The notes beneath the pieces were generated by a model that was not told the DNA's origin, did not search any database, and was given only the letters and a program-made list of their open reading frames with translations. From a virus, in the IMG/VR virus record IMGVR_UViG_3300047357_000466, positions 1 to 43,077 of that record: a stretch of DNA of 43,077 nucleotides; one strand, written 5' to 3'. The position numbers and the translations under genes were made by a program. Shown here piece after piece: positions 7,560 through 43,077 of the stretch; position 1 is the first letter of the stretch; every line of letters starts with the position of its first letter.

Positions 7560-9788
7560 ATGGCAAAAATGAATAAGATTAGTTCTTTTAAGTCTTTCTC
7601 TGAATTAAGAGAGACAGAAATAGCTGATAAATTACAACAAGAAAATAAAGCCAAAAGATTAGAGCTAACAACCAGGATAGGTAAAATATTAGACGAGATG
7701 GAAATAACATCTTTTGAAAATCTAGAAGAAGAAGTTAGAGATCAATTAATAGAAAAATCATTTGGTTTAATTAAAGAAGGAGATAAAACAAAGGTTTCTA
7801 AGAAAGAAATTAAATTTCACCTAGATGCTTTTAAAAAAGGAGATATTGAAGGTGAAGATTTAGCACAGGCTATTTCAGATATTATATTTGGAGAAGTAAA
7901 AGGGCCAGGCATGGAATCTAAAGATCCTGAACAAGTTTCAGAAGCAACTGTTGTTATGGATGCAATAAACCCTGGTGATAAAGATTTCTTAAAATTCTTA
8001 AAAAAGAATAAAGTTAAAATAATTGACACTGTAAAATCAGGCCCAAGTGGACATCCTGAAATTACAATGCAAGGAAAAAGAAAAGATCTTGAAGCAGTAT
8101 TAGCTGATAGTGAATTAGGATGGGATGATCCTGGTTTAGCAGAATTTATTGAAGAATCAGTAAACATTTCAGAAGCAGTAATAGTTACTGGTAGAAGAGA
8201 CGCTAAAAAAGTTTTAACAGCATATACTAAATTTTTCCAAAAATATCCAGCATTAGCTGATAGAAGATTTACAGGTTTACATTTAGGAGCAATTAAATCC
8301 TTAATGGTTTCTGCACTAACAGACGCTAATTTTCATAGAGAATCAGCAGCATGCGGAAAGGCTATTAAAGGAGCAAAGCTTCAACCAGTTTTTATTAAGC
8401 CAATGGAATTAAATAAAACAGAAATTAAAGTACCTGTTGGTAAAGTAGCATCTATTTTAGATGATAATGCATCTCTTATTTCTGGTGCAGCCAGCTTTTC
8501 TGGTTTAGGTATTGCTGAAGGAACGGCATTATACTTAGATTCTCTTAAATATGTTAAAGAAGCAGAGGCAGTTATTGCATGTTTTAATTCTACGTTTGAA
8601 AGTGAAGTTACTGACGTAACAGAAGGTAATGCATTTTTAGGAGCAAGAGCTAAGGCTATTGAAGAAGATGCTGAAGAATTTGAATTTAACGGTAAAAAAT
8701 ATCCAGTAATTAAAGAATCAGAAGAAGTTACTGAATCAGACGAACCAAAGTGTAATAATAAAAAAGGACATTTATATAAGCAAATTGACAAGGACGGAAC
8801 GGTAGAATGTGTGCACTGTGGTTTAAGAAATTCATTAAGCGAATCAGTAATTAAAGAAGCAGAAGAAGCAGAAGAAGCAGAAGAAGTTACTGAAGCTAAA
8901 TTTGTAAAAGATTTTGATAAAGATGTTTTAGATGCTGAAACCAAAGCAGATATAACAACTTACTACCCTTCTGCTAAATTCTTTATAGGTAAATCAACCC
9001 ACTTCTTCGGAGAATTAGATAAAAATTTATTTTTTAAAGCATATTATAAAGATTATGTAAAGAAGGCTGGTGGTAAAATCGATGGTGATTTTAAAATTGT
9101 AATGATATATTCTGAAAAAGGTAGTAATTTTGTACCTTTATTTACTAGAGAAGTTACTGAATCAGTGGTTACTGAAGCTAAAATTAATTCTGACGAAGAG
9201 TTTAAAGAATATGCTACAACTGTTTTACAAAAAGCGTTTGGTGAAGATTATGACGAAGCAAAAGCAAACGAAGTTATTGATGGTATTTTAGCAAAAGTTG
9301 ACGGAGATTACGGCGCTGCTGTAGGAATGTTAACATCTTCATTAGGAGAATCAGTAGTTACTGAAAAATATAACAAGAAAAAGTTATTAAAAGCAATTAA
9401 GAATAAAGACGACATGTTCATTCAATTAGCAGACGGTACTGAACTACTAGTTTATAACCCAGATTCTAATAATGACGACAATGCAGAAATGTGGCACGAT
9501 GATGTGGTATTTGCGCTCGATCAAGACGGAGAAGAACATGAGGTTAAATACTCAGATATTGCAGGTATTGGTGAATCTGCAGTTACTGAAGCTAACGCTG
9601 ATGGAACTATTTCAGATGATGAAGACGAAAAAAGAGAGGAACTTTTAAATAGAGTTAAAGAACAAATGGAAGAGCTATTAGCATCTGCAGAATTAGACGC
9701 TAAAGATATTGGAGGCCCTTTTAGATCTCCTGGTATTATGTTCGATATTAGAAAACAACTTGATAAGCAAGTTAAAAAGTTTAAATAA
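7560..9788 (+). CDS. Modular internal-head polyprotein candidate
   Basis: 742 residues. The N-terminus (MNKISSFKSFSELRETE) resembles a capsid-targeting peptide. The rest is a string of small domains joined by Glu-rich linkers that repeatedly contain hydrophobic-x-Glu-small sites: VSEA (126-129), ISEA (203-206), IAEG (318-321), VTEG (353-356), VTES (390-393), IKEA (431-434), VTEA (443-446), VTES then VTEA (532-540) and VTEA (675-678). T4 prohead protease gp21 cuts after Glu in such contexts. A zinc-ribbon-like module is visible (Cys398, His404, Cys417, Cys420). No catalytic motif is recognised. A terminator follows. Processing by gp21 and packaging in the head are inferences from these sites and from the neighbouring genes. 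Confidence 0.65.
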   Translation: MAKMNKISSFKSFSELRETEIADKLQQENKAKRLELTTRIGKILDEMEITSFENLEEEVRDQLIEKSFGLIKEGDKTKVSKKEIKFHLDAFKKGDIEGEDLAQAISDIIFGEVKGPGMESKDPEQVSEATVVMDAINPGDKDFLKFLKKNKVKIIDTVKSGPSGHPEITMQGKRKDLEAVLADSELGWDDPGLAEFIEESVNISEAVIVTGRRDAKKVLTAYTKFFQKYPALADRRFTGLHLGAIKSLMVSALTDANFHRESAACGKAIKGAKLQPVFIKPMELNKTEIKVPVGKVASILDDNASLISGAASFSGLGIAEGTALYLDSLKYVKEAEAVIACFNSTFESEVTDVTEGNAFLGARAKAIEEDAEEFEFNGKKYPVIKESEEVTESDEPKCNNKKGHLYKQIDKDGTVECVHCGLRNSLSESVIKEAEEAEEAEEVTEAKFVKDFDKDVLDAETKADITTYYPSAKFFIGKSTHFFGELDKNLFFKAYYKDYVKKAGGKIDGDFKIVMIYSEKGSNFVPLFTREVTESVVTEAKINSDEEFKEYATTVLQKAFGEDYDEAKANEVIDGILAKVDGDYGAAVGMLTSSLGESVVTEKYNKKKLLKAIKNKDDMFIQLADGTELLVYNPDSNNDDNAEMWHDDVVFALDQDGEEHEVKYSDIAGIGESAVTEANADGTISDDEDEKREELLNRVKEQMEELLASAELDAKDIGGPFRSPGIMFDIRKQLDKQVKKFK
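8856..8886 (+). repeat. Nine-base tandem repeat, about 3.4 copies
   Basis: GAAGCAGAA is repeated three times and followed by a partial GAAG copy, in frame, encoding Glu-Ala-Glu steps in a linker of the polyprotein. It separates the zinc-ribbon-like module from the next module and is probably a length-variable linker. Confidence 0.8.
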
Positions 9789-9847: not shown

Positions 9848-10150
9848 ATGAAGAAAACAAAATTATACGAAGAATTTATTAACGAAGAAATCTATTTAAC
9901 TTATAGCGAGATAGTGGGTTATCAATTTGATAAGTTTGTAGAATCATATCTTAAACTAAATAAAAATAATAAAACAGTTTACGATAAAAAAGAAGACTTT
10001 ACTTATGGTTTTAGAAAAGGATCTAAAACGGCACATTGGAAATATGACCATGATAATTTTGAATTACATCATAGTGAAAAAGAATTCCATGTTTTAGGTC
10101 TTATAAATTTTTATAAACAAGCATCTAAAGGACACCCTTGGTCTAAATAA
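9848..10150 (+). CDS. Small protein with capsid-targeting-like N-terminus
   Basis: 100 residues. The first 14 residues, MKKTKLYEEFINEE, match the T4 internal-protein targeting pattern (Met-Lys, aromatic, Glu-Phe-Ile, x-Glu), with a possible cut after INE. The remainder is charged and rich in Lys, Tyr and His (EIVGYQFDKFVESYLKLNK, KTAHWKYDHDNFELHH) with no known motif. It follows a terminator and leads the ligase-like genes, ten bases upstream of the next start. I infer a head-packaged small protein; the activity is unknown. Confidence 0.6.
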   Translation: MKKTKLYEEFINEEIYLTYSEIVGYQFDKFVESYLKLNKNNKTVYDKKEDFTYGFRKGSKTAHWKYDHDNFELHHSEKEFHVLGLINFYKQASKGHPWSK

Positions 10151-11445: not shown

Positions 11446-13329
11446 ATGGCACTTAAAAAATTAAGAGAACATTTTCAAGAAACTAACATTAATGAGTTTC
11501 ACAGATTGTTAAAAAATAGAGTAATAGTTGTTGAAAAGATTTCAGCCCCATCTTTTTATGTTAGAAGAAATAAAGAAAAATTTGAATTTTACAAATCTTC
11601 AAAATCTAAACCTCTGACAATAATAGATAGAACTATTATGTCTCTTTATGAAGTTGCAATTAAACATATACAGAGTTTAAATCCTAAAAGTAAAAAAGAA
11701 TTGCCAGATAATTATAGATTTGGCTTTGAGTATTTGCCAGAAGAAAGGGTTTCTGAATATGTATACACTAAAATACCTAAAAATACTTTAATATTAACAC
11801 ATATCCAACAGCTGGGTGAAAATGGAAAAGTAAAAAAGACAATTATAGATCCTTTAATTATAAAAAAATGGGCTAATGTATTAGAAGTACAACAACAAGA
11901 AATTATATTTGACGGAACTTTAGATTCAACTCAAAAAGAAAAGCTTATTAATTTATTAGAAATGAATGATAAATCTTTTTCTGAGTCATTCGATTACGAC
12001 GTAGAAACAGACAAATTAGTTTCTTTTACAAAAGAAATATACAAGATATTTGATACTAACTCAACATCAAGTATTCTTCAAGAGGATTTAGAATCTGAAA
12101 TAGATGGTTTAGTTTTAAATTTTGCTGAAGGTAAAAAAATACAATCTTACAAATTAGAAGATTTTATTAGAAAACCTTTAAATGAAATTAGGGAAGGTTC
12201 ACACACATATCAAATAGCAATTGCAGATATATTAGAATTTTTTGTTAATTATGATTTTTCAGAAACAAATCTAGTTGAAGAAAATGCAGAAAAAAGATAC
12301 CTAGAATTAATTTCAGCAGCATTTAACAAATACGTTAACAAAAATGCAACAAGATATATTGGAGTTAATTTCCAAAATGCAGAATTTTCTTCTTCTAAAT
12401 TATTTAATTTAAACACAACATTTATTAAAAACGAAAAAACATTAACACACGTTTCAAACGAAGTTTTATCAAGTTTGTTTAAAATAACATTAGGTACTTT
12501 TAGAAAGCATAAAACGAAAGCAACAGATATACTAAATGACGATATGATATCTCAATTAAATAATATAGTTGATAAAATCAATGATGTCGTTTTTCTAGAA
12601 AAAGCAGACGAAAATTCTATATACGATTATAAGAATTTTATGATGCATAACAATATAAAAAGCGAAGTAACTTTAAATGAAGCGTTAACTGTTAAGCACG
12701 CTGAGCAAGGTAAAGAATTAGTAAATATGTTCGTTGGTAGATTTCAACCATTTACATTAGGACATGCAAAGGTTTTAGAAGCTATTCATAAACAAAATGG
12801 ATATCCAGTTATTGTATTTTTAATTAAAGCAAAATCTAAAAAGAAAGGTGACGAATTTAGAAAGCCTTATTCTGAAGATTTACAAATTAAAATGTTTAAG
12901 CAAGTTCAAAAGCAATATAAATTCTTAAAGGAAATTATAGTACTTGATAGAGGTGCTATTGATTATATGTTTAACGAATTAAGACCTAAATATGAACCAG
13001 TTCTTTGGGGAACCGGATCAGACCGAATGACTTCTTATGGATATCAAGTAAATAATGATTCTTATAGAGATCAATTAAATGTAAGATCTGATTTTGGATT
13101 ATTTGAAATACCAAGAAATGATAATAATATATCAGCAACTCAAGTAAGAAATGCACTATTAGATGGTAATGAAAAGGAGTTCAAAAAGATGACACCAAGG
13201 GCAATTCATAAAATGTATGACACTTTAAAGTCTGAACTTGAAAAATCTATGGAGATGGTCGCAGCTTCTAAAGTTATATCAGAATCAGTTATGACATTTC
13301 AAGAATATATGAATAAATTAAAATCATAA
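11446..13329 (+). CDS. Ligase-fold protein fused to an NMN-adenylyltransferase-like domain
   Basis: 627 residues in two parts. Residues 1-245 resemble a ligase-fold nucleotidyltransferase: VVEKISAPSFYVRR (Lys31 as candidate nucleophile), RFGFEYLPE (91-99, motif III), EIDGLVLNF (218-226, motif IV) and YKLEDF (235-240, motif V). Residues 423-600 form a Rossmann-type nucleotidylyltransferase: MFVGRFQPFTLGHAKVLEAI carries the HxGH-type signature (Thr-Leu-Gly-His at 437-440, with Gly431-Arg432-Phe433-Gln434-Pro435) and NISATQVRNAL (561-571) is the ISxTxxR motif of the NadM/NadR-type NMNAT family. The C-terminus ESVMTFQEYMNKLKS resembles a targeting peptide placed at the end. NAD+ synthesis or repair during infection is a reasonable inference. 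Confidence 0.65.
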   Translation: MALKKLREHFQETNINEFHRLLKNRVIVVEKISAPSFYVRRNKEKFEFYKSSKSKPLTIIDRTIMSLYEVAIKHIQSLNPKSKKELPDNYRFGFEYLPEERVSEYVYTKIPKNTLILTHIQQLGENGKVKKTIIDPLIIKKWANVLEVQQQEIIFDGTLDSTQKEKLINLLEMNDKSFSESFDYDVETDKLVSFTKEIYKIFDTNSTSSILQEDLESEIDGLVLNFAEGKKIQSYKLEDFIRKPLNEIREGSHTYQIAIADILEFFVNYDFSETNLVEENAEKRYLELISAAFNKYVNKNATRYIGVNFQNAEFSSSKLFNLNTTFIKNEKTLTHVSNEVLSSLFKITLGTFRKHKTKATDILNDDMISQLNNIVDKINDVVFLEKADENSIYDYKNFMMHNNIKSEVTLNEALTVKHAEQGKELVNMFVGRFQPFTLGHAKVLEAIHKQNGYPVIVFLIKAKSKKKGDEFRKPYSEDLQIKMFKQVQKQYKFLKEIIVLDRGAIDYMFNELRPKYEPVLWGTGSDRMTSYGYQVNNDSYRDQLNVRSDFGLFEIPRNDNNISATQVRNALLDGNEKEFKKMTPRAIHKMYDTLKSELEKSMEMVAASKVISESVMTFQEYMNKLKS

Positions 13330-13376: not shown

Positions 13377-15278
13377 ATGAATAAATCACACTTTAATCAA
13401 GATGATAGAGTAGATGAAGGAAAAATAACAATAAAAAGACGTTATACTGAAAACTACCCTGCAAAAACTGTTGGTAAATCAGCAAGAATTAGAAACAAAA
13501 TGTTGGAAGCAATTTCTGACGGTGCTATTACTCAAGAAGAATTTGATTCTATTATAGCAGAATTATCGTCTGATTCAAAAAGATGGTTATCTCGTAATTC
13601 TAGGTTATTTAATATTACAGAAGCTGGAATAACATTAACAGGGTTAGGTAAAAAGATTTTATCTCAAATTACAGTAAATGAAAAAACAGAAAAGAATCCA
13701 GAAATATGGGTTCCTGGGAAGTTTGATAAAGACGTTTCTAAATTAACAGCCGACGAATTAACAATAGACAATATAAAAAAATTATCAAAAAAACATAGAG
13801 TATTTTTAGACGATGCAATTGCATACGTTGAGTATAGCTTCGATGTTGATATTGTAGAAAATAAAGAAAATAATATGAAAACAAAATTAGTTTTTGAATC
13901 TTTTGGAGATTTTGTAAATTCATTAAACAAAAATAATGAAGAATTAAACGAAGGAACTAGAGGTCAATTTGGAATGATTGATAAAAAAGGAAATATCCAA
14001 TCAGTGTATATGCATTACGATTCATATCCTGAAAATATTTTACCTTTAATAAAAAAGGGTTATAAAAACGCTAAAAAAGTACAGGCAGTTATTGATAGAG
14101 GAGATACTTCTGGATTAGATAAAACAGTTGATGCTATGAATTTCTATGAAGATGGAAGAAAACCAACATCTGGTAAAAAAGCAGACATAGATCGTTATAT
14201 TAAAAAAGCAGCTGATGATGGTGGAGCAGAATACATTTATTTATATGACGAGTCTGATAAAACTTGGTATATGGTAGATGTTTATGGAGACATGCAATTA
14301 GTTCCAGCATTTGAATCTGTAGTTAATGAAGCATTTAAATCTTCTAAATTAAGAAATTTAGTAAGTATGGATCAATCACAACGCGATGGATATGGTAAAG
14401 CAAGAAATTTAGCAGCAGCTATTTATGGATTATCAAAACTAAAATTAGATAAAATTGAAGATTCTTCTTTAATTGATGTAGATCCTAAAGAAGCTTATAA
14501 AAAATATCAAAACAATAGAGACTATTTAGTTTTTTATATAGTAGACAACGAAAAAGAAAATGAATACAGTAAAGGTTCATTTACAGCATCAATAAAACCA
14601 GGTATTTTAGCTTTAACCAGAGGAAAAGACTTTTTATCAGTTCAATACGTCCAAGCTAGAAGAAACACAAAAGTAACACGTACTTTAGGAAAAGATGATG
14701 GTAATGCAATTGGTGGTAATAAAAGATATTCTGGATATGATGCATCGGGTATTTCTTCAGTTGTAAGAGCTTCTAAATTAGCAGACAGAGCAATTGTAAT
14801 TGATATTGTTAATGGTGGCGAAACTTCAAAAGAAGAAAGAAACGAAAGAGCAAGAGCAAAAGAAGGAGCTTTAGCTTTTAAATCTGACGCAGACTTTAAG
14901 AAAGCTAACAAGGCAAGATACCAAGAAATCTTAGCAACTAAAGCTTCTAAGTTACCTCTTGATAAAATGGTTAATGATGCTATTGATGATTTAGGAAAGC
15001 AAATTAAAGATGGTCTTAAGGCTAATAAAAAGACAGAATACGGAGAGCTTAAAATTGGAGAAAATTCTAAAGGTAGAGCAGTTAAAATTACAGATGCTTC
15101 AAACCACATGAGTAGAATCTTATCTGATTATCAAAGATATGTTGAATACATGGTAAAAGCAGAAGAAGAAAAAGGTAGAGATTATTCATCAGGATATTAC
15201 GAAAAGAATTCAAAACAATACGCTAAAGATATTAAAGATTCAGTTAAAAAAATACCTACGTTCGATTACGCTTGGTAA
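13377..15278 (+). CDS. Modular putative internal-head protein, possible fusion
   Basis: 633 residues. Residues 1-160 form a charged first unit (IRNKMLEAISDGAITQEEF). At Met167 a new targeting-like sequence begins, MKTKLVFESFGDFVNSLN, preceded by an A-rich stretch like true starts in this genome (internal ATG at 13875). A module at about 190-310 follows (TRGQFGMIDKKGNI, MHYDSYPENILPLIKKGY, ADDGGAEYIYLYD), a pattern I associate with small domains found in many phage proteins. SVVNEAFKSS (314-323) looks like another processing site, after which a 310-residue Lys-rich unit runs to the stop. No catalytic residues are recognised. Two products, from the first start and from 13875, are possible. Confidence 0.6.
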   Translation: MNKSHFNQDDRVDEGKITIKRRYTENYPAKTVGKSARIRNKMLEAISDGAITQEEFDSIIAELSSDSKRWLSRNSRLFNITEAGITLTGLGKKILSQITVNEKTEKNPEIWVPGKFDKDVSKLTADELTIDNIKKLSKKHRVFLDDAIAYVEYSFDVDIVENKENNMKTKLVFESFGDFVNSLNKNNEELNEGTRGQFGMIDKKGNIQSVYMHYDSYPENILPLIKKGYKNAKKVQAVIDRGDTSGLDKTVDAMNFYEDGRKPTSGKKADIDRYIKKAADDGGAEYIYLYDESDKTWYMVDVYGDMQLVPAFESVVNEAFKSSKLRNLVSMDQSQRDGYGKARNLAAAIYGLSKLKLDKIEDSSLIDVDPKEAYKKYQNNRDYLVFYIVDNEKENEYSKGSFTASIKPGILALTRGKDFLSVQYVQARRNTKVTRTLGKDDGNAIGGNKRYSGYDASGISSVVRASKLADRAIVIDIVNGGETSKEERNERARAKEGALAFKSDADFKKANKARYQEILATKASKLPLDKMVNDAIDDLGKQIKDGLKANKKTEYGELKIGENSKGRAVKITDASNHMSRILSDYQRYVEYMVKAEEEKGRDYSSGYYEKNSKQYAKDIKDSVKKIPTFDYAW

Positions 15279-15279
15279 T

Positions 15280-16767
15280 ATGAAAACAATGTATACATCA
15301 TTTAGCGAATTTTCAAGAGGGATTAAAGAAAACATCTCACCAGAAAGTATTGGAGGAATGGGAGATGTTATATTACCGAATGGTGATGAACTAGGTTCTG
15401 GTGATATTCCTTCTGAAGAAGATGATGAAAATAAAGAAAAAATAAATACAAAATCTATGGATTTTAATAGTTTTATAAACAAATCAACGGTTAGTAAATT
15501 AGTCATTGAGAAATCAGCAACAGATACTCTAGCGGATGATGTTTCTGGAGAATTATATATTGCAAAACTTAAAGGCAAGTCAGCTACTATTAAAGCAACG
15601 ACTACGACAAAGACATGGGATGATGGAGTTCCGGTATTAAAGTATTTAGCAAGAGGTAAAAGTAAATCAATGTCTTTTGATTTATATCAAAGACCTTTTC
15701 AAGTGGTACACGACTATGCACATGGCTGGTGGTACTTCACAGATGGTGGAAAATGGTACGGATTACACGTAAGCGACGGTTATAGTGAAGCTGCTGATTT
15801 ACCATTCGATATGCAAATTCCAGAAAACAAAATACAAGAGGGTGTTATGTCTGACATTCACCAAATGATAGGTAATCATAAAACTTTTGATTCATTTCAA
15901 AAAGAATTCTTTAAAGAATATGGAGATAACAAAGCTATGAAAAAAACCAAAGACTTTTTAGAATGGCTAGAAGCTTTATATTCAGATTCACAATATGCAG
16001 TATCTGAGGCAAGACCAGGTACTTACACGTACCAAATGGATAGTGAAGGAAATACTAGAAAAGTATTACCACCATATTATGGTAATTCAGAACTTCATGA
16101 TAAATCAAAAGAACTATTTAAAAAACCATGGAAAAAGCTTAGTGATAAACAACAAGATGAAGTTTTAGCAGCATTTGCAATAGTTGAGGCAAGATCAATT
16201 AATAAAATCCAGAAGGAATACTCTAAGGTCGTAAATGATATGGCTGAAGTTGTTGTAAACTGGAAAGCAGCTAAAGGCTCTGGTGATGCAAAGGCAGAAG
16301 CTAGCTTCTTAGCAAAATTAAAAGATTTAACTTCTAATAAAAAATCATTAATGTCAGAATTAGATGACGCAGTAGGTATTAAAGATTTAAATATTGAATT
16401 AGCAGAATCAGTAAATGAATCTATGAGTTCTTATTATTTTGATAGTCCAAGTGAATATGGTCAATTTTCAAATGAAGCACCTGCAAAGGGTGAAACTAAA
16501 TATTTAGTAATGGCTACTAATAAAGCTTTATTTAATGGACAAGAAATTAGATTAGAAGGATCAATAAGATTTGGTTCAACCTCTAAAAAAGAAATTTTAG
16601 GAGTTTTTGATAAAGAATCAGAAGCTTTAACATTTTATAAATCAGCTATGAAAAAACCACAAGGAACTATGGTTTCTTTTACGGTAGGATCTGTTGTTGG
16701 TGTAACTAAATTTAGATCTCAATATACCGAGATAGAAGGATATCTTGCAACAGCAAAGGTAAAATAA
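15280..16767 (+). CDS. Modular putative internal-head protein
   Basis: 495 residues starting MKTMYTSFSEFSRGIKEN, a capsid-targeting-like N-terminus. Several units follow: an acidic linker (about 36-55), a Trp/Tyr/Gly-rich unit (about 80-185, including HGWWYFTDGGKWYGLHV), IQEGVMSDIHQMI and KTFDSFQKEF (185-210) resembling an internal targeting or linker repeat, VSEARPG (241-247) as a possible processing site, a helical unit (270-375), and LAESVNES (374-381) before a final beta-rich unit. It begins one base after the previous stop and ends before a strong terminator, closing the 9-kb cargo-like block. No enzyme motif is recognised. Confidence 0.6.
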   Translation: MKTMYTSFSEFSRGIKENISPESIGGMGDVILPNGDELGSGDIPSEEDDENKEKINTKSMDFNSFINKSTVSKLVIEKSATDTLADDVSGELYIAKLKGKSATIKATTTTKTWDDGVPVLKYLARGKSKSMSFDLYQRPFQVVHDYAHGWWYFTDGGKWYGLHVSDGYSEAADLPFDMQIPENKIQEGVMSDIHQMIGNHKTFDSFQKEFFKEYGDNKAMKKTKDFLEWLEALYSDSQYAVSEARPGTYTYQMDSEGNTRKVLPPYYGNSELHDKSKELFKKPWKKLSDKQQDEVLAAFAIVEARSINKIQKEYSKVVNDMAEVVVNWKAAKGSGDAKAEASFLAKLKDLTSNKKSLMSELDDAVGIKDLNIELAESVNESMSSYYFDSPSEYGQFSNEAPAKGETKYLVMATNKALFNGQEIRLEGSIRFGSTSKKEILGVFDKESEALTFYKSAMKKPQGTMVSFTVGSVVGVTKFRSQYTEIEGYLATAKVK

Positions 16768-16865: not shown

Positions 16866-17243
16866 ATGAAAATAGCTTTAATAGCGCACGACAACAAAAA
16901 AGCTGACATGGTCGCTTTTGTATCAAAAAGATTACCTTTCTTTAATAGAAAGGATATTACTATTGTAACCACTGGAACAACGGGAAAACACGTTATGCAT
17001 GCTGGGATAGAAGACGTTATTAAAGTAAATTCAGGGCCACTTGGAGGAGATGCTCAGATAGCAGCAATGGTTACTGAAGGTGAAATAGATTTAGTTATCT
17101 TTTTAAGAGATCCATTAGGCAAACATCCACATGATGTTGATATCAGTATGTTAATGCGATTATGTGACGTTCATGATATACCTCTCGCAACAAATTATAG
17201 AACAGCAAGCTACTTAGTTAAATATTTAAAATCTTGTAAATAA
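16866..17243 (+). CDS. mgsA: Methylglyoxal synthase
   Basis: 125 residues, a little shorter than E. coli MgsA (152) but covering the whole catalytic domain. It converts dihydroxyacetone phosphate to methylglyoxal and phosphate, bypassing lower glycolysis. The key residues are all in place: His8 (IALIAHDNKK, E. coli His19), Asp62 in SGPLGGDAQIAAM (Asp71), Asp82 (Asp91), and KHPHDVD with His89 and Asp92 (His98 and Asp101). The phosphate-binding TTGTTGKH segment is also present. It is first in a short operon with a small gene and a cytidylyltransferase-like gene, and is separated from the cargo block by a terminator. Why a phage would carry it is not clear from the sequence. Confidence 0.9.
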   Translation: MKIALIAHDNKKADMVAFVSKRLPFFNRKDITIVTTGTTGKHVMHAGIEDVIKVNSGPLGGDAQIAAMVTEGEIDLVIFLRDPLGKHPHDVDISMLMRLCDVHDIPLATNYRTASYLVKYLKSCK

Positions 17244-22392: not shown

Positions 22393-22859
22393 TGGCAAAC
22401 ATAGATAACGAATGTAAAGACTTAGAAGTAAAAGACTTTTATGATCAGTCAAACACTCACCTAGCAGATATCATGGAAAACCAAAAAAAGATGCAAGAGC
22501 AGACTTACGGTTTTAACTTTGATGATATGACAATCCGAGAAATTATGGATTTCTGGCACTGCAATACACATGCAGTTGTTGATGAAATTCACGAAATGAC
22601 TGATGCTCTTGGTGGTATTAAAGATGGTTCTGGAAATGCAGTATGGAAATACTGGAAAAAAGACTTTACAAAATACGATACATTAAAGATTTCTGACATG
22701 TCTGAAGGAGACAAAAAAGAATTGTATATGGAATGGGTAGATATTCTACACTTCTTTATTAATTACGCCGCTTCAATCGGGCTAGATGCTAAAACAGCAT
22801 ATAACTATTATTTCGCAAAAGCAGAAGAAAATGTTAACCGTCAGAAAAATAACTATTAA
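22392..22859 (+). CDS. All-alpha dUTPase/dCTPase-like NTP pyrophosphatase
   Basis: 155 residues with the all-alpha NTP pyrophosphatase (MazG/dimeric dUTPase) pattern: HAVVDEIHEMTDALGG gives an E-x-x-E metal site and MEWVDILHFF gives an E-x-x-D site. KAEENVNRQKNNY near the C-terminus resembles the Asn-x-x-Arg-Gln segment of dimeric dUTPases. T4 gp56 (dCTPase/dUTPase) belongs to this superfamily and keeps unmodified dCTP out of phage DNA. A role in dUTP or dCTP removal is therefore likely, but the base specificity cannot be told. It overlaps both neighbours by one base. Confidence 0.75.
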   Translation: MANIDNECKDLEVKDFYDQSNTHLADIMENQKKMQEQTYGFNFDDMTIREIMDFWHCNTHAVVDEIHEMTDALGGIKDGSGNAVWKYWKKDFTKYDTLKISDMSEGDKKELYMEWVDILHFFINYAASIGLDAKTAYNYYFAKAEENVNRQKNNY

Positions 22860-24256
22860 TGATATTAGATATCGAACAAAGAGATAGGGATGTCATTGTT
22901 TCCTATTACGATACTGAAGGTAAAGTAGCATATAAACAATATCCAATTGCTCAATTCCAGAATTGGTATATATGTGATGAAAAAGAAAAAGGAGTTAGCT
23001 CTGAATTTAAAAACTGGGATGGAAGGCCTGTTAAATTAGGAAACGCTAGACAATTCAATAAATTTTCATTAAATTATTTTATAGACGGATTACCTGAAAA
23101 AGATAAAGAAGAAATTTTAGCATATAATATGCCTAAAACCTATTTTGTCGATATTGAAACTGAAATTGTAGATGGTTTTCCTAAAGCTGAAGAAGCTAAA
23201 AGTAGAATTTTATCATTCTCAATTATTACACCAGAACGTAAAGCAATTGTATTAGGACTGGAAGATATGGCTCCTGATAAAATTAAAAAGATCAATGATG
23301 ATACTAATGAGTACTTCAAAGACTTTGATCAGGATTGGGAATTTAAGTACCATAAGTTTAATACTGAATATGATATGGTATATACTTTTTTAATGAAGTT
23401 TTTACCTAAATTTCCAATGATGACTGGCTGGAACTTTATAAACTATGACTGGCAATATATCGTGAATAGATGTAAAAGATTGCAAATAGATGTTACTGAA
23501 ATAGGCATGACTAAAAAGGTTGATAGAAACGATTCTAGACCTTTACATATTGGTATTTTAGATTACATGCAGTTATATGATAAATATGATCGTAGTGTGA
23601 AAGTAAAAGAATCTAATGCACTTGATTACGTTTCTGGTCAAGTATTAAACGTAAAGAAGATTAAATACTCAGGCTCATTACAGGATTTATATAGAGATAA
23701 TTTCGTTAAATACATTTATTATAACGTGGTCGATTCAGTGTTGGTATACTATATTGATCAAAAGTTAAAATCAATGGAAGTTCTTTTAACTCTTGCAAAT
23801 ATAACAAGAATGCCGCTATATAAAGCAGCTTCTCCTGTGGCAGTCACAGAATCTTTAATGGCAAGAAAGCTAGCAGAGCAAGGAATGCGAATAGGAACCG
23901 AAAGAAGAGAAGATAGTGAAAAGAATTCTCAATACGCCGGAGCATTTGTTAAAGAACCTATTGTTGGATATTATGAAGGTGTAAGTGCATTTGACTTTGC
24001 TTCCCTATACCCATCCATAATGAGACAATTTAATATTTCGCCAGATGCTTATATAGAGCAGGTATATAAGACTGAGGTTGCGGAAAGACGTAAAGACAAA
24101 GATGTTATTGTTTGTGATAATGGTGTAGTTTATAAAAAAGATGATAGTATTCTTAAAAAGATATTAACAGATTTATATGCTCAAAGGAAACAATATAAGA
24201 AAATGTCGTATGATTATTTTACTAAAGCCGATCAGCTTAAAAAAAGATTAAGATAA
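22859..24256 (+). CDS. 43A: DNA polymerase, N-terminal half (T4 gp43 type)
   Basis: 465 residues of a family B polymerase that ends inside the fingers. The proofreading exonuclease is complete: YFVDIETEI (Asp98, Glu100), WNFINYDWQYI (Asp197) and YNVVDSVLVYYI (Asp292). The palm begins with motif A, AFDFASLYPSIM (Asp379), and the open frame stops after a charged helix (LYAQRKQYKKM, then residues 451-465). Motifs B and C are absent and are found 3.9 kb downstream in a separate gene. The two parts together (865 residues) are close to full-length gp43 (898). Nothing suggests decay: both halves are intact and in good frame. They must associate to give an active enzyme. Confidence 0.9.
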   Translation: MILDIEQRDRDVIVSYYDTEGKVAYKQYPIAQFQNWYICDEKEKGVSSEFKNWDGRPVKLGNARQFNKFSLNYFIDGLPEKDKEEILAYNMPKTYFVDIETEIVDGFPKAEEAKSRILSFSIITPERKAIVLGLEDMAPDKIKKINDDTNEYFKDFDQDWEFKYHKFNTEYDMVYTFLMKFLPKFPMMTGWNFINYDWQYIVNRCKRLQIDVTEIGMTKKVDRNDSRPLHIGILDYMQLYDKYDRSVKVKESNALDYVSGQVLNVKKIKYSGSLQDLYRDNFVKYIYYNVVDSVLVYYIDQKLKSMEVLLTLANITRMPLYKAASPVAVTESLMARKLAEQGMRIGTERREDSEKNSQYAGAFVKEPIVGYYEGVSAFDFASLYPSIMRQFNISPDAYIEQVYKTEVAERRKDKDVIVCDNGVVYKKDDSILKKILTDLYAQRKQYKKMSYDYFTKADQLKKRLR

Positions 24257-28168: not shown

Positions 28169-29371
28169 ATGATAGAGATACAGGAACTTATTGATAAACC
28201 AGAAAGCGAGCTTAGTGTTCAAGAAACTGAAACATTGATTGATCATTATCAAACAATGTCTGCAAAATACACAGCGTACGAACAGGCAGTTAAAGTAACA
28301 CTAAACTCGATTTATGGTGCCTTTGGTAATAAATGGTTTCACTTTTTCGATATTGAAATAGCAGAATCAATTACATTACAAGGCCAAAGTGCCATTCTAT
28401 ATTCTGAAAAAATATTAAATAAATATTTTCAAGAATTTTGGCCAAAAGATACAGTAGTTCATGAACACTTTAATATTAGTATTAAAAATAAATTAGTAAG
28501 ACCATCCGTAGTTTATATTGACACAGATTCTTGCTATGTTCAGTTTGAAGAAATGTATGAGTCTATTGAATGGTTAGGAGAATCAAAACCTCCTATTGAT
28601 AAGTTTATTATGGATTTATATGAATTTAGACTTAAAGATTATATCACTAAATGTATGCAAAAATATGCAGATGTTACTAACACAAAAAACTTCTTGTTCT
28701 TCGAGTTAGAATCAATCGCATATTCAGGTATATGGTTAGCAAAAAAGAAGTATTTACAAAACATAGCATGGGAGGATAGATTAGAAGTTTCTGATAGATA
28801 TGATTCTCTTAAAAAAATTAAAACAATCGGGTTTGATACAATACAATCTTCAACACCGGCACTTGCACGTAAACACCTAACTGATGCTTTAAAAATAGTC
28901 CTTTCTGAAAAACCAACAGCAGATCTTCTTAAAAAGCTAGTAGATTATTTGAAGAAAGGTAAGAAAGAATTTAAATTGGCGGATATAGACCAAATAGCAT
29001 TTAATAAAAGAACAAACAATATTGAAAAATATATTGTAGATGATACTATTGAATTTCAAATAGGATTAAAGTGTCCACCTAATGTTAAAGCCGCAGGATT
29101 TTATAATTTCTTAATGAATCAATCCCCTAAATATAAAAACAAATATAAAATGATAGGTAATGGCGAGAAATTAAAGCTGTATCACTGTAAGCATTTATCA
29201 TGCGATATGTTTGCTTATTTGCCAGGAGATCATCCTTATGAAATTGCGCCTGAAGTTGATTACGAACTACAATTTGAAAAAAGCGTAATAGACCCTTTAA
29301 ATAGAGTATTGAAGGCAGTAGGTCTTCAGACTTTAAACAGAAATTTAATTTATTCAACATCATTATTTTAA
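28169..29371 (+). CDS. 43B: DNA polymerase, C-terminal half (T4 gp43 type)
   Basis: 400 residues carrying the rest of the family B polymerase. Motif B is QAVKVTLNSIYGAFGN (39-54) and motif C is VVYIDTDSCYVQF (Asp118 and Asp120 as metal ligands). The KKK-x-Y and thumb-region pattern (YSGIWLAKKKYLQNIAW, FDTIQSSTPALARKHL) matches T4 gp43. The last residues, ending in NRNLIYSTSLF, correspond to the clamp-binding tail. The first 35 residues form a charged helix that would complete the fingers of the N-terminal half at 22859. Start chosen at 28169, six bases after the clamp candidate. Without the other half it lacks motif A and exonuclease. Confidence 0.9.
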   Translation: MIEIQELIDKPESELSVQETETLIDHYQTMSAKYTAYEQAVKVTLNSIYGAFGNKWFHFFDIEIAESITLQGQSAILYSEKILNKYFQEFWPKDTVVHEHFNISIKNKLVRPSVVYIDTDSCYVQFEEMYESIEWLGESKPPIDKFIMDLYEFRLKDYITKCMQKYADVTNTKNFLFFELESIAYSGIWLAKKKYLQNIAWEDRLEVSDRYDSLKKIKTIGFDTIQSSTPALARKHLTDALKIVLSEKPTADLLKKLVDYLKKGKKEFKLADIDQIAFNKRTNNIEKYIVDDTIEFQIGLKCPPNVKAAGFYNFLMNQSPKYKNKYKMIGNGEKLKLYHCKHLSCDMFAYLPGDHPYEIAPEVDYELQFEKSVIDPLNRVLKAVGLQTLNRNLIYSTSLF

Positions 29372-39801: not shown

Positions 39802-41397
39802 ATGGCAGGATTCGTAGATAGAAATGGACCATTAAGCTACAATAAGAAATCATTTACACTGAGAGATCAGCTAAAGAAGCTAAGCTCTTTTGGTATGTAT
39901 TATGATGATTTAGTACTTAGGCAATCACAGGCAATAGGTCCGATTGAAGACGCAATAGGTTTTGGTCAAATGAACCAAATGGGATTAGACTCAGATGATA
40001 TGTATGGTGCTTTCGCAGCCCTTTCAATGTCTGATACTACAATGCGTAAGAATGTACCGTTCTTCGATCAAAATTACGAAAGTAAGCGTAATGAATTAAG
40101 AGCATTTTCAACGTATGATGAAATTGAAGATATTTTAGATATTCTTTGTGATGAGTCTGTTGTTTATGATAATAAAAACTTTTTTGCAACTCCTGAACTT
40201 ATAGGAATGGAAGTTAGTGAAGAAGTTGAAAAATATTTACAAAAAGCATATCGAGATATTTATCAATATTTTGGATTTAATCAAGATCAATCGGCATGGT
40301 ACTTTTATAGAAAGTTCTTAGTTGATGGTTATCTTTCTTTTGAAATAGTTTATAACCCTGAACAAACTCAAATTATTGGATTTAAAGAAATTGATCCTAT
40401 AACATTAATTCCAGGATATAATAAAACAGATGGCAAGAAAGTATGGACTCAATTTAAAGACGATCCAGTTAAGGAGAGAGTCCTGTATGATTCTCAGATC
40501 ATTTATATTTCTTATTCATCAATTACCACAGCCTCGAGAGTAAGTTACTTAGAGAGACTTATAAGGTCATTTAATTTAATGAGAATTATGGAACACACTA
40601 GAGTAATCTGGGCTGTTACTAATTCTTCTTATAGAATGAAATTTATAATCCCAGTTGGTGGTAAATCTAAAACAAGAGCAAAACAATCACTTGCTCAGTT
40701 AATGAATAACTATAAAGAAGTTGTAGATTTTGATTGGGAATCTGGAAGTATGCATACTGACGGTAAACCAATGTTACAATTTAATAAAGAATATTGGTTA
40801 CCTTCGAAAGATGGAGAACAGCCGGAGATTGAAACACTAGGAGGAGAAGGTCCTGAATTATCAGACACAGAAGCTCTTAAATATTTCTCAGATAAATTAA
40901 AAATGGTTTCTAAAATACCATTTAATAGATTCATGTATGAAGATGGTGGTGGAGATTTCAATTTAGCCGCTGACGGTATGATTAGAGATGAGATTAAGTT
41001 TGGTAAATTTATTAAACGTTTAAGATCTACATTCCAAGAAATTTTAGTTAAACCGTTATACATTCAAATGTGTTTAAAATTTCCTGAATTTGAAAATGAT
41101 GCATCTTTTAAAACACAGATATCTCTACAATTCCTTGAGGAAAACATGTTTGCTGAATTAAAACAAATGGAAATCATGGAACGTAGAGTAGAGTTTATTA
41201 GTTCTGTAAAAGATTCTCTAGTTGAAACAAATCCAGAAACAATGGAAGAAGAATATTATTTCGATTCAGATTTCTTAGTCGATAGATACTTAAAACTAAG
41301 TCCAGATGATAAAGCAGCTAATGCAGCTTACAAGGCAAGAAAAGCTGCTAAAGATGCAGAAGAACCTGAGATTGACCCAATGGACATGGGAATATAA
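39802..41397 (+). CDS. 20: Portal vertex protein (T4 gp20-like)
   Basis: 531 residues (T4 gp20 524). The portal dodecamer nucleates head assembly, and DNA enters and leaves through it. Evidence is length, helical composition and T4-like segments: KNVPFFDQNYESKRNELRAF, AFSTYDEIEDILDILCDESV, SYLERLIRSFNLMRIMEHTR with VIWAVTNSSYRMKF, KMVSKIPFNRFMYEDGG and EIKFGKFIKRLRSTFQEIL. The C-terminus is helical and acidic (PEIDPMDMGI). It is followed by a core protein and the prohead protease, the T4 order. Confidence 0.93.
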   Translation: MAGFVDRNGPLSYNKKSFTLRDQLKKLSSFGMYYDDLVLRQSQAIGPIEDAIGFGQMNQMGLDSDDMYGAFAALSMSDTTMRKNVPFFDQNYESKRNELRAFSTYDEIEDILDILCDESVVYDNKNFFATPELIGMEVSEEVEKYLQKAYRDIYQYFGFNQDQSAWYFYRKFLVDGYLSFEIVYNPEQTQIIGFKEIDPITLIPGYNKTDGKKVWTQFKDDPVKERVLYDSQIIYISYSSITTASRVSYLERLIRSFNLMRIMEHTRVIWAVTNSSYRMKFIIPVGGKSKTRAKQSLAQLMNNYKEVVDFDWESGSMHTDGKPMLQFNKEYWLPSKDGEQPEIETLGGEGPELSDTEALKYFSDKLKMVSKIPFNRFMYEDGGGDFNLAADGMIRDEIKFGKFIKRLRSTFQEILVKPLYIQMCLKFPEFENDASFKTQISLQFLEENMFAELKQMEIMERRVEFISSVKDSLVETNPETMEEEYYFDSDFLVDRYLKLSPDDKAANAAYKARKAAKDAEEPEIDPMDMGI

Positions 41398-41426: not shown

Positions 41427-41765
41427 ATGAAAAGAGTAAGATTATACGAAGATTTTATAGCTGAAGATGCAAAAACAGTTACACCTGATTCGGATATTAA
41501 AATTGATGATTTTTCAACAGACGATGGGATTGAACTTAAATCTCAAGAAATTATTGGAGCAATAGTTAGTTCTGCGACTGAAAAAGAATTTAAAGAATAT
41601 TTTTTTGATCAATATGGCAACACAGCTTTTACGGAAGCAGATATGCAAAGTTTAGTCACAATGTATAATGAATATGTAGAAGAAGTTACCGCGATAGAGA
41701 CCGAAGAGGAAGAAGAAGAGAAAAAAGAAGAAGAAGGAGAAGATGATCCTTTAGCAGATATTTAA
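41427..41765 (+). CDS. Prohead core protein candidate (T4 gp67-like)
   Basis: 112 residues. The N-terminus MKRVRLYEDFIAEDAKT is very like the T4 capsid-targeting peptide MKTYQEFIAEA, with a gp21-type cleavage point after FIAE. The middle is helical (IIGAIVSSATEKEFKEYFF). The C-terminus is a long acidic run (TEEEEEEKKEEEGEDDPLADI). T4 gp67 is also small with an acidic tail and sits between gp20 and gp21, exactly the position here. Prohead core proteins are digested by gp21 before DNA packaging. Confidence 0.65.
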   Translation: MKRVRLYEDFIAEDAKTVTPDSDIKIDDFSTDDGIELKSQEIIGAIVSSATEKEFKEYFFDQYGNTAFTEADMQSLVTMYNEYVEEVTAIETEEEEEEKKEEEGEDDPLADI

Positions 41766-41834: not shown

Positions 41835-43077
41835 ATGAGCAAAACTGACTTATTAATCTTAGAAAGATCTGCTTCGGGTTTAGAATTTAAAGAAGAAAAC
41901 GGAGTATATGTATTAGAAGGAGTTTTTGGCGAATTAGATACGAAGAATAGAAACAACCGTATTTACACTGCTGAAGAGTATCTACCACAGATCGAATCAT
42001 TACAAGATAAAATCAAAGCATCTAAACTTTTAGGTGAATTAGATCATCCACAAAATTTTGACGTTTCTTTAAAGAATGTATCACACATTATTGAAGAAAT
42101 AACATACGATGAAGCAAATAAGCAAATTAAAGGACGTATTAGATTATTAGATACTGACGCTGGTCGTCAAGCTAAAGCACTTGTTGATGCTGGAGTACCA
42201 CTTCAAATTTCTTCAAGAGCAGCCGGCGCTGTAGAATCTAATGGTAAAGTAAAGATTAAACAATTATTTACTTATGATTTAGTTGCAGATCCTGGATTTG
42301 AAAACGCAGAATTAAAGAGAGTTAACGAATCTTTTGGATTTGAAAACAACTCTGATATTCTAATTTATGAAATCGGTGGAAGCTCAAACTTAAACGAAGA
42401 AACAACAAAAATCGAAAATAAACAAACAGAAACAATGGCAGAATCTAAATTTATCACTGTTGAAGATTTTAATAAGTACTCACAATATCTTTCTGAAGAA
42501 ATGAAGAGTATTAAAGAATCTATGGCAGCTGCTAAAGAAAATGGCAATGATACAGAAATAGAAAATCTAAAAGAATATGCTGGATATTTAGCAGAAAAAT
42601 TAGATCAGTCTATTAATACAGCCGAAGAATTAGCAACAAAAACAGATCAATCAATTCAGTACACGGAATCTATTGCTGAAAAATTAGATCAATCAATTCA
42701 ATACTCTGAGCATATTGCTGAAGGTGTTGATTCAATTAAAGAGTACACTAACTACTTAGCAGAATCTTATAACGAAGGAGCAACAACTCACGAAGGTTTA
42801 TTAAAGTACATCGACTACTTAAAAGAAAACTTAGAAAAAGTTACAGAATACGCAGAATATGTTGCTGAAACTGTAAATTCTAATTTAATTTTAGAAGATG
42901 AAGCTGGTAAAGAAGTTGAGGAAATCGAAGCTGAAAACGATGCAAAAGACGTTACTGAACCAACAGTTGATGCTGAAGGTAATGAGCTTGAACACGGAGC
43001 TGAAGTTAAAGATGTTGAAAAAGATCTAGAACTTGAAGGTGAAGGAGACGCTGAAGGAGAGGAAATCTCAGAAGAAG
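41835..43077 (+). CDS. 21: Prohead protease (T4 gp21-like) with scaffold-like extension, 3'-truncated
   Basis: 414 residues are visible from the ATG at 41835; the frame is still open at the window end. Residues 1-165 match the gp21 serine protease: GVFGELDTKNRNNRIY, LLGELDHPQ (His71), LQISSRAAGAV (Ser126/127) and YDLVADPGFENAEL (Asp152 near the active site). T4 gp21 ends near 212. Here, from about residue 200, a long coiled-coil region follows with repeats such as IAEKLDQSIQYTE and IAEGVDS, then an acidic Glu-rich segment. That looks like a gp22-type scaffold fused in frame. Met201 (42435) is in an A-rich context and could start a separate scaffold product. Confidence 0.85.
   Translation, partial: MSKTDLLILERSASGLEFKEENGVYVLEGVFGELDTKNRNNRIYTAEEYLPQIESLQDKIKASKLLGELDHPQNFDVSLKNVSHIIEEITYDEANKQIKGRIRLLDTDAGRQAKALVDAGVPLQISSRAAGAVESNGKVKIKQLFTYDLVADPGFENAELKRVNESFGFENNSDILIYEIGGSSNLNEETTKIENKQTETMAESKFITVEDFNKYSQYLSEEMKSIKESMAAAKENGNDTEIENLKEYAGYLAEKLDQSINTAEELATKTDQSIQYTESIAEKLDQSIQYSEHIAEGVDSIKEYTNYLAESYNEGATTHEGLLKYIDYLKENLEKVTEYAEYVAETVNSNLILEDEAGKEVEEIEAENDAKDVTEPTVDAEGNELEHGAEVKDVEKDLELEGEGDAEGEEISEE

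Follow-up and report, generated by a model that had tools for sequence, protein, structure and literature searches.

The open reading frame at positions 7560–9788 of the window, a 43,077-base uncultivated virus record taken at its full length, whose right end carries a head module like that of T4, most probably encodes a prohead polyprotein that would be cut after Glu by the window's own gp21-type S77 protease, releasing small internal proteins. The frame begins with ATG on the plus strand and stays open throughout, giving a chain of 742 residues. In the proposed mechanism, an N-terminal sequence resembling a capsid-targeting sequence (CTS) would draw the chain into the prohead core, and the protease would cut after Glu at hydrophobic-x-Glu↓(A/G/S/K) sites (the arrow marks the cut) in flexible linkers, yielding about nine products of 4–16 kDa (residues 19–128, 129–205, 206–355, 356–392, 393–433, 446–534, 540–602, 603–677 and 678–742). 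After release, the products would remain in the head and probably pass into the host together with the DNA, and whole modules would be gained, lost and reordered at the joints among relatives. Cleavage, packaging and ejection of the chain would follow from T4 precedent (PMC9026906, PMC5694885), and the cut specificity presumed for the window's protease is deduced from T4 and from the motif. The original prediction of a string of small core or effector proteins released in the prohead is supported by the coincidence of sites and borders, module insertions and deletions, CTS-led and standalone modules, the gp21 homologue and the T4 form of the sites; we infer the cleavage, the virion location and the effector role of the modules. 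The features are listed in Table 1.

Table 1. Positions of the 742-residue chain, its segments and the related genes of the window.
Feature	Positions	Strand	Remarks
CTS-like N-terminus MAKMNKISSFKSFSELRE, residues 1–18 (candidate cut end)	7560–7613	+	SFxxFxE pattern
N-terminal helical segment, residues 19–128, ending VSE↓A	7614–7943	+	Predicted secondary structure
Module M1, residues 129–205 (ATVVMDA...ISE), alpha/beta	7944–8174	+	Recurs in at least 5 other contexts
Module M2, residues 206–355 (AVIVTGRRDAKKV...VTE), helical	8175–8624	+	IAEG-320 and VKEA-334 within its helices
Module M3 (GNAF), residues 356–392	8625–8735	+	Also in protease-scaffold fusion of relatives
Candidate zinc-ribbon module, residues 393–433, three Cys, ending IKE↓A	8736–8858	+	Sequence
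Acidic spacer AEEAEEAEEVTE, residues 434–445	8859–8894	+	Whole module here instead in L001/L119
Module M4, residues 446–534 (AKFVKDFD...VTE), mostly beta	8895–9161	+	Homology and model
Linker DNA repeat GAATCAGTGGTTACTGAAGC (ESVVTEA, double site VTE↓SVVTE↓A)	9159–9178	+	DNA repeat scan
Module M5, residues 540–602 (AKINSDEEFKEY...VTE), helical	9177–9365	+	Homology and model
Linker DNA repeat (ESVVTEK), site VTE↓K 602	9348–9367	+	DNA repeat scan
Module M6, residues 603–677 (KYNKKKLL...VTE), small beta fold	9366–9590	+	Homology and model
C-terminal module, residues 678–742 (ANADGTISDDEDEKREEL...KKFK), helical, and stop codon	9591–9788	+	ORF and model
Single small gene, T4-like CTS MKKTKLYEEFINE↓E	9848–10150	+	
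Gene with CTS-like start MKILSFKDFLIE..., 427 aa	10161–11444	+	
Second putative modular polyprotein, 633 aa	13377–15278	+	wHTH-like module, internal CTS-like sequence, LNE↓GTRGQ module (phrog_1987), linker ESVVNEA, C-terminal domain
Third modular protein, 495 aa, CTS-like start	15280–16767	+	Sites IQE↓G, VSE↓A, IVE↓A, VNE↓S
Portal	39802–41397		
gp67-position prohead core gene, small, acidic, start MKRVRLYEDFIAED, MKRVRLYEDFIAE↓D...	41427–41765	+	
S77 prohead protease (gp21 homologue) fused to scaffold-like region	41835–43077	+	Runs off contig

The repeated hydrophobic-x-Glu-small sites claimed for this frame were borne out, at about an order of magnitude over chance. Against 2,000 residue shuffles, the patterns [VIL][TNS]E[ASGK], ES..[VILMA]xE[ASGK] and [VIL]xE[AS] occurred 10, 7 and 14 times, with 0.82, 0.28 and 2.6 expected (P ≤ 0.0005 for each). 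No other ORF of the window showed such an excess, the nearest being 13377–15278 (4 matches to [VIL][TNS]E[ASGK], 0.5 expected). The P1 glutamates lie at residues 128 (VSE↓A), 205 (ISE↓A), 320 (IAE↓G), 355 (VTE↓G), 392 (VTE↓S), 433 (IKE↓A), 445 (VTE↓A), 534 (VTE↓S), 539 (VTE↓A), 602 (VTE↓K) and 677 (VTE↓A). In an AlphaFold2 model built on a 34-row alignment (mean pLDDT 64.9), modules M1, M2, M5 and M6 form blocks mostly at 70–90; the gaps below pLDDT 50 comprise 23% of the residues but hold 15 of the 19 [VILM]xE[ASGKN] sites (binomial 4e-7; Fisher against all other Glu, 7e-5). The four sites outside these gaps are 65, 128, 320 and 334. Site 128 is barely outside a gap, yet is a true border by homology, and IEKS-65, IAEG-320 and VKEA-334 were dropped as cut sites because they fall within predicted helices. 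Most of the sites originally listed therefore stand, with the exception of IAEG-320, and VTE↓K at 602 had been overlooked; their placement at domain borders agrees with the model, but some of the linkers, all described as acidic, are not notably so.

Relatives were gathered by a viral-contig scan, which gave 34 loci, and then through the portal and a neighbouring gene, which gave 120, nearly all of them viral contigs; an alignment of many short fragments was poor and was left out of the analysis. The 742-residue protein matches these relatives in pieces, with residues 353–398 alone in one protein, 580–678 in another and 128–205 in many. When BLAST homology breakpoints were collected independently of the site motif, 111 of 160 linkers lay within 10 residues of one, whereas 1,000 rotations gave 41 on average and never more than 58; as the loci are related to one another, the result cannot be read as an exact P value, though the effect itself is large. 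We then took 78 module starts, their register fixed by conserved module residues. The residue directly before the module (P1) was Glu in 77 of them and P3 was V, I, L, M or F in 71, with P2 free and P1′ being A, G, K, S or N; the few starts lacking a hydrophobic P3 read PTNE↓A, VTNE↓A or YFE↓A. Judged by residues, this rule for module starts is the T4 gp21 pattern.

These conserved positions bear directly on another reading, that of a polyvalent-type multidomain protein packaged and ejected whole, its linkers serving as flexible joints or only its N-terminal propeptide being cut. Shuffled multidomain virion effectors are known, some of them packaged unprocessed (N4 vRNAP, discussed in PMC5512222), and the low-confidence linkers of the model would fit flexible tethers. 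However, flexible joints need neither the P1 Glu nor the hydrophobic P3, and doubled sites such as VTE↓SVVTE↓A and the coincidence of a site with the N-terminus of a standalone homologue (see below) also argue against it, so that we regard this reading as unlikely.

Close relatives differ by whole modules inserted or deleted at the sites. Locus L001, about 90% identical, has a module of about 70 residues between sites 433 and 445 in place of the acidic spacer of the window; in L030, another protein has this module after ESMVTE↓A, and the candidate zinc-ribbon module follows VTE↓S. Residues 393–536 are missing from L005, which has about 80 residues added ahead of IQE↓ATVVMDA. Additional modules of gene 13377–15278 lie in both L001 and L005 exactly at the linker ESVVNEA, and other modules occupy the position of residues 19–128 in relatives. 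A gene split in L014 was rejected as a sign of modularity, as it looks like an assembly frameshift. Comparison of linker positions in related phages, the check suggested with the original prediction, gave a clearly favourable result: the sites coincide with homology breakpoints, whole modules are gained or lost between them, and the comparison shows them to be module borders. By its breakpoints, module starts, insertions and deletions and standalone homologue, the ORF joins several proteins at sites of protease type.

Modules also occur behind N-terminal CTS-like starts. The SFxxFxE pattern of the chain's own start resembles the T4 internal protein CTS MKTYQEFIAE↓A and is kept in relatives, and the T4 form is matched more closely by the neighbouring genes at 9848 and 41427. 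In several phages the wHTH-like module follows such a start (MATFEDFLSE↓GKKIQIKRRYT), and in others an internal linker (ESVVSE↓SKIQIKRKYT). Likewise, the GTRGQ module (phrog_1987), internal in the window, is a separate gene with a CTS-like start in L029 (MNNIKNFNDFVNESQGINE↓GTRSQFG). Linker and N-terminal CTS thus look equivalent as module leaders. In Synechococcus phage ACG-2014f, a GTRGQ-type module is a standalone protein beginning MGTRSRIG, so a cut at NE↓G, with a predicted product starting GTRS, would regenerate a natural N-terminus. A Streptococcus phage encodes a standalone relative of the GTR module of 100 residues (MATKARIG); in Streptococcus phage YS43 (L133, 2221–3300), such a relative sits with a toxin-antitoxin pair of the RelE/ParE type on one side and the portal gene on the other. 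Relatives of the window include genomes of 160–179 kb, among them that of L097. In a 178.7-kb relative, modular proteins cluster at 92.7–106 kb, and single genes with MKxxKLFEQFxNE-like starts occur elsewhere; CTS-like starts were found in 17 of its 204 ORFs, versus about 6 in background windows.

The linkers are conserved beneath the protein level as well. Over 37 linkers with the consensus GAATCAGTAGTTACTGAAGC, the first Val is encoded by GTA in 25 of 27 cases (background 41%), the second by GTT in 35 of 37 (49%) and Thr by ACT in 24 of 25 (45%). Within the window, this 20-bp repeat occurs with at most three mismatches at 8841, 9159, 9348, 9573 and 14313, where none is expected by chance, and exact 18-bp copies were found in 11 loci. 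The pattern has a single orientation in all eight records with matches and never appeared in the backward control. Since unrelated joints within one ORF share linker DNA, the linkers seem to have spread by copying, and part of the motif repetition would then be due to copying, which we counted against the polyprotein reading. Conservation as DNA also means that the linker may serve as a recombination joint, a spot where modules could be swapped. Carried to its end, this argument would make the linker chiefly a recombination-promoting repeat, with protein processing absent or incidental; codons far more uniform than background and the exact copies speak for it. Yet more distant relatives keep hydrophobic-x-Glu in other words (INES, MNEG, IQEA, ICEA and LTEA), and FLSE↓G and FLNE↓K occur in the N-terminal CTS-like cases, which makes a chiefly DNA-level role very improbable.

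The processing enzyme of the polyprotein reading would be the protease at the end of the window, where the contig end truncates its gene; L087 has a complete one. The protease of the window matches PF03420 (E 1e-11) and phrog_207, 'head maturation protease' (E 8e-43), and aligns with T4 gp21 at 27% identity over 132 residues (BLASTP E 7e-12), with GEL(D/N)HP and SSR common to both, confirming the gp21 gene of the original prediction. The nearest public phage relatives of the portal are huge uncultured phages, followed by Sphingomonas phage PAU and Prevotella Lak phages. In nearly all loci of the clade, the gene between portal and protease starts with a CTS-like peptide. This gp67-position gene encodes 111–123 residues in most phages, 213–215 in L056 and L073, 348 in L062, 800 in L047 and at least 1,315, with 14 linkers, in L049. 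Relatives thus have from none to many inserted modules, placed behind the CTS-like start, and complete genes retain the core-type C-terminus. The GNAF module, part of the 742-residue protein, likewise recurs in the protease-scaffold fusion.

Such placements could point to a core or scaffold protein that is sacrificed: like T4 gp22 and gp68, it would be degraded and removed, and its pieces would have no later role; T4 gp22 is itself rich in hydrophobic-x-Glu sites. Several modules (M1, M2, M5 and M6) are nevertheless predicted to fold with fair confidence, the fast shuffling of unrelated folds is unlike a scaffold, and one of the modules forms a gene of its own in a cyanophage and in a Streptococcus phage. 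We therefore find a purely sacrificial role improbable and retain the release of internal proteins from a polyprotein as the preferred reading.

Among known systems, the closest are the T4 internal proteins IPI, IPII, IPIII and Alt, which share the N-terminal CTS of the MKxYxEFIxE↓A type, the hydrophobic-x-Glu cut form and a gp21-family protease in the genome. Besides the IPII/IPIII sequence given above, T4 sites of this form include ITE↓A in IPI and FLTE65↓A in gp23. Alt is cut at ITE-6 and LTE-619, the latter a C-terminal site (PMC5694885), and Asp at position 10 of the IPIII CTS prevents processing of that protein (PMC9026906). T4 differs in having one gene per internal protein, with one or two cuts each, whereas about ten or more proteins could share one chain with internal sites here. 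The contrast with T4 drawn in the original prediction thus holds for the polyprotein form but is incomplete, as single genes of the T4 style, each with a CTS-like start, occur in these phages too. The gp67-position gene resembles T4 gp67 and gp22 in its portal-protease position, acidic C-terminus and many hydrophobic-x-Glu sites, and differs in that it can also bear cargo-like modules behind the CTS-like start.

Polyvalent proteins of phages and conjugative elements carry 2–15 shuffled domains per chain, and their packaging and early delivery have been predicted (Iyer et al. 2017, PMC5512222). The 742-residue protein, with multiple domains in one phage-encoded chain, shares this architecture. 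Polyvalent proteins, however, are built of known conflict domains, and the processing discussed for them rests on their own MPTase domains (PMC5512222), while no MPTase domain was found here and the joints look like trans sites for the prohead protease. The head and inner-body proteins of phiKZ and SPN3US are likewise cut after Glu at many sites by a gp21-related protease (PMC10052503, PMC9026906). In SPN3US, 42 head proteins are uncut and almost all of the cuts identified take off an N-terminal propeptide (PMC10052503), which counts against a polyprotein; the sites here part predicted folded, independently moving modules instead. Given the shared T4 internal protein signals, the polyvalent conflict domains not found and the propeptide cuts of SPN3US, we class the 742-residue protein with the CTS/gp21 internal-protein route, in a polyprotein form, rather than with the polyvalent proteins. 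The literature searched, which included few subscription journals, yielded papers on T4, phiKZ, SPN3US, P1 and polyvalent proteins and no published prohead polyprotein of comparable kind.

Searches for families and folds gave few leads. The 742-residue protein had no match to known internal proteins, those of T4 included, in 50,697 phage records, Pfam or NCBIfam, and in PHROGs only one at E 0.07; tblastn of the whole protein and of two module stretches against the 50,697 phage genomes found nothing. Foldseek returned no match below E 0.001 for either model (742-residue protein and 13377–15278), PADLOC gave no convincing match, and conflict domains (ART, MPTase, ArdC, PBECR and others) had no match in Pfam, NCBIfam or PADLOC, with remote folds possible. 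No known effector domain was found in the modules; fold and family searches gave nothing reliable. VIA-align placed M1 near acylphosphatase, KH and NikR-type alpha/beta folds (Z 6.6 and less), which are too common to assign a function. For the wHTH-like module (residues ~17–100 of 13377–15278), the best PDB fold match was the T4 MotA activation domain (E 0.24, weak), which is only a lead because a profile search of PDB sequences gave no backing; the idea of a virion-delivered transcription factor is of interest, if true. A Pfam match of the same protein to Toxin_BN_H (22 bits, cut-off 52) was taken as chance, being far under the threshold and partly over a low-confidence stretch.

The arrangement suggests that proteins destined for delivery into bacteria are loaded in modular fashion. 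More tentatively, and with slightly less than even confidence, we propose that open-ended prohead polyproteins serve this T4-related clade as a cassette system, in which a small host-acting protein and a linker make up one cassette and the linker is both protease site and recombination joint; cargo could then be added in one step with no new promoter or targeting signal, and the core-assembly gene could carry cargo too. If true, double-stranded DNA phages would use a polyprotein strategy of the RNA-virus type with the head-maturation protease as processing enzyme, and a single targeting signal would load many small proteins in equal numbers. From sequence alone, the cut rule would give the exact ends of dozens of small virion-delivered proteins, and the predicted products would be directly testable as host-takeover or counter-defence factors. 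It would also offer a natural design for placing several cargoes in T4-type heads with one CTS.

Several other genes were noted. The 627-residue protein at 11446–13329 has an NMN-adenylyltransferase/cytidylyltransferase-like domain and ends in ISESVMTFQEYMNKLKS, a CTS-like C-terminal tail reminiscent of the C-terminal cut of T4 Alt. In L087 (14266) and relatives, the N-terminus of the major capsid protein, MANLINSAEVRETWAPIIESATGINE↓AEKL, has the same motif form and is a candidate maturation site. The family B DNA polymerase of the window is split into two ORFs (22859–24256 and 28169–29371), between which lie both ribonucleotide reductase subunit genes and a 251-residue gene; L029 has a similar polymerase N-terminal half followed by a reductase gene. 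Finally, a methylglyoxal synthase (NF003559, E 1e-45), seemingly an unusual enzyme for a phage, is encoded at 16866–17243.
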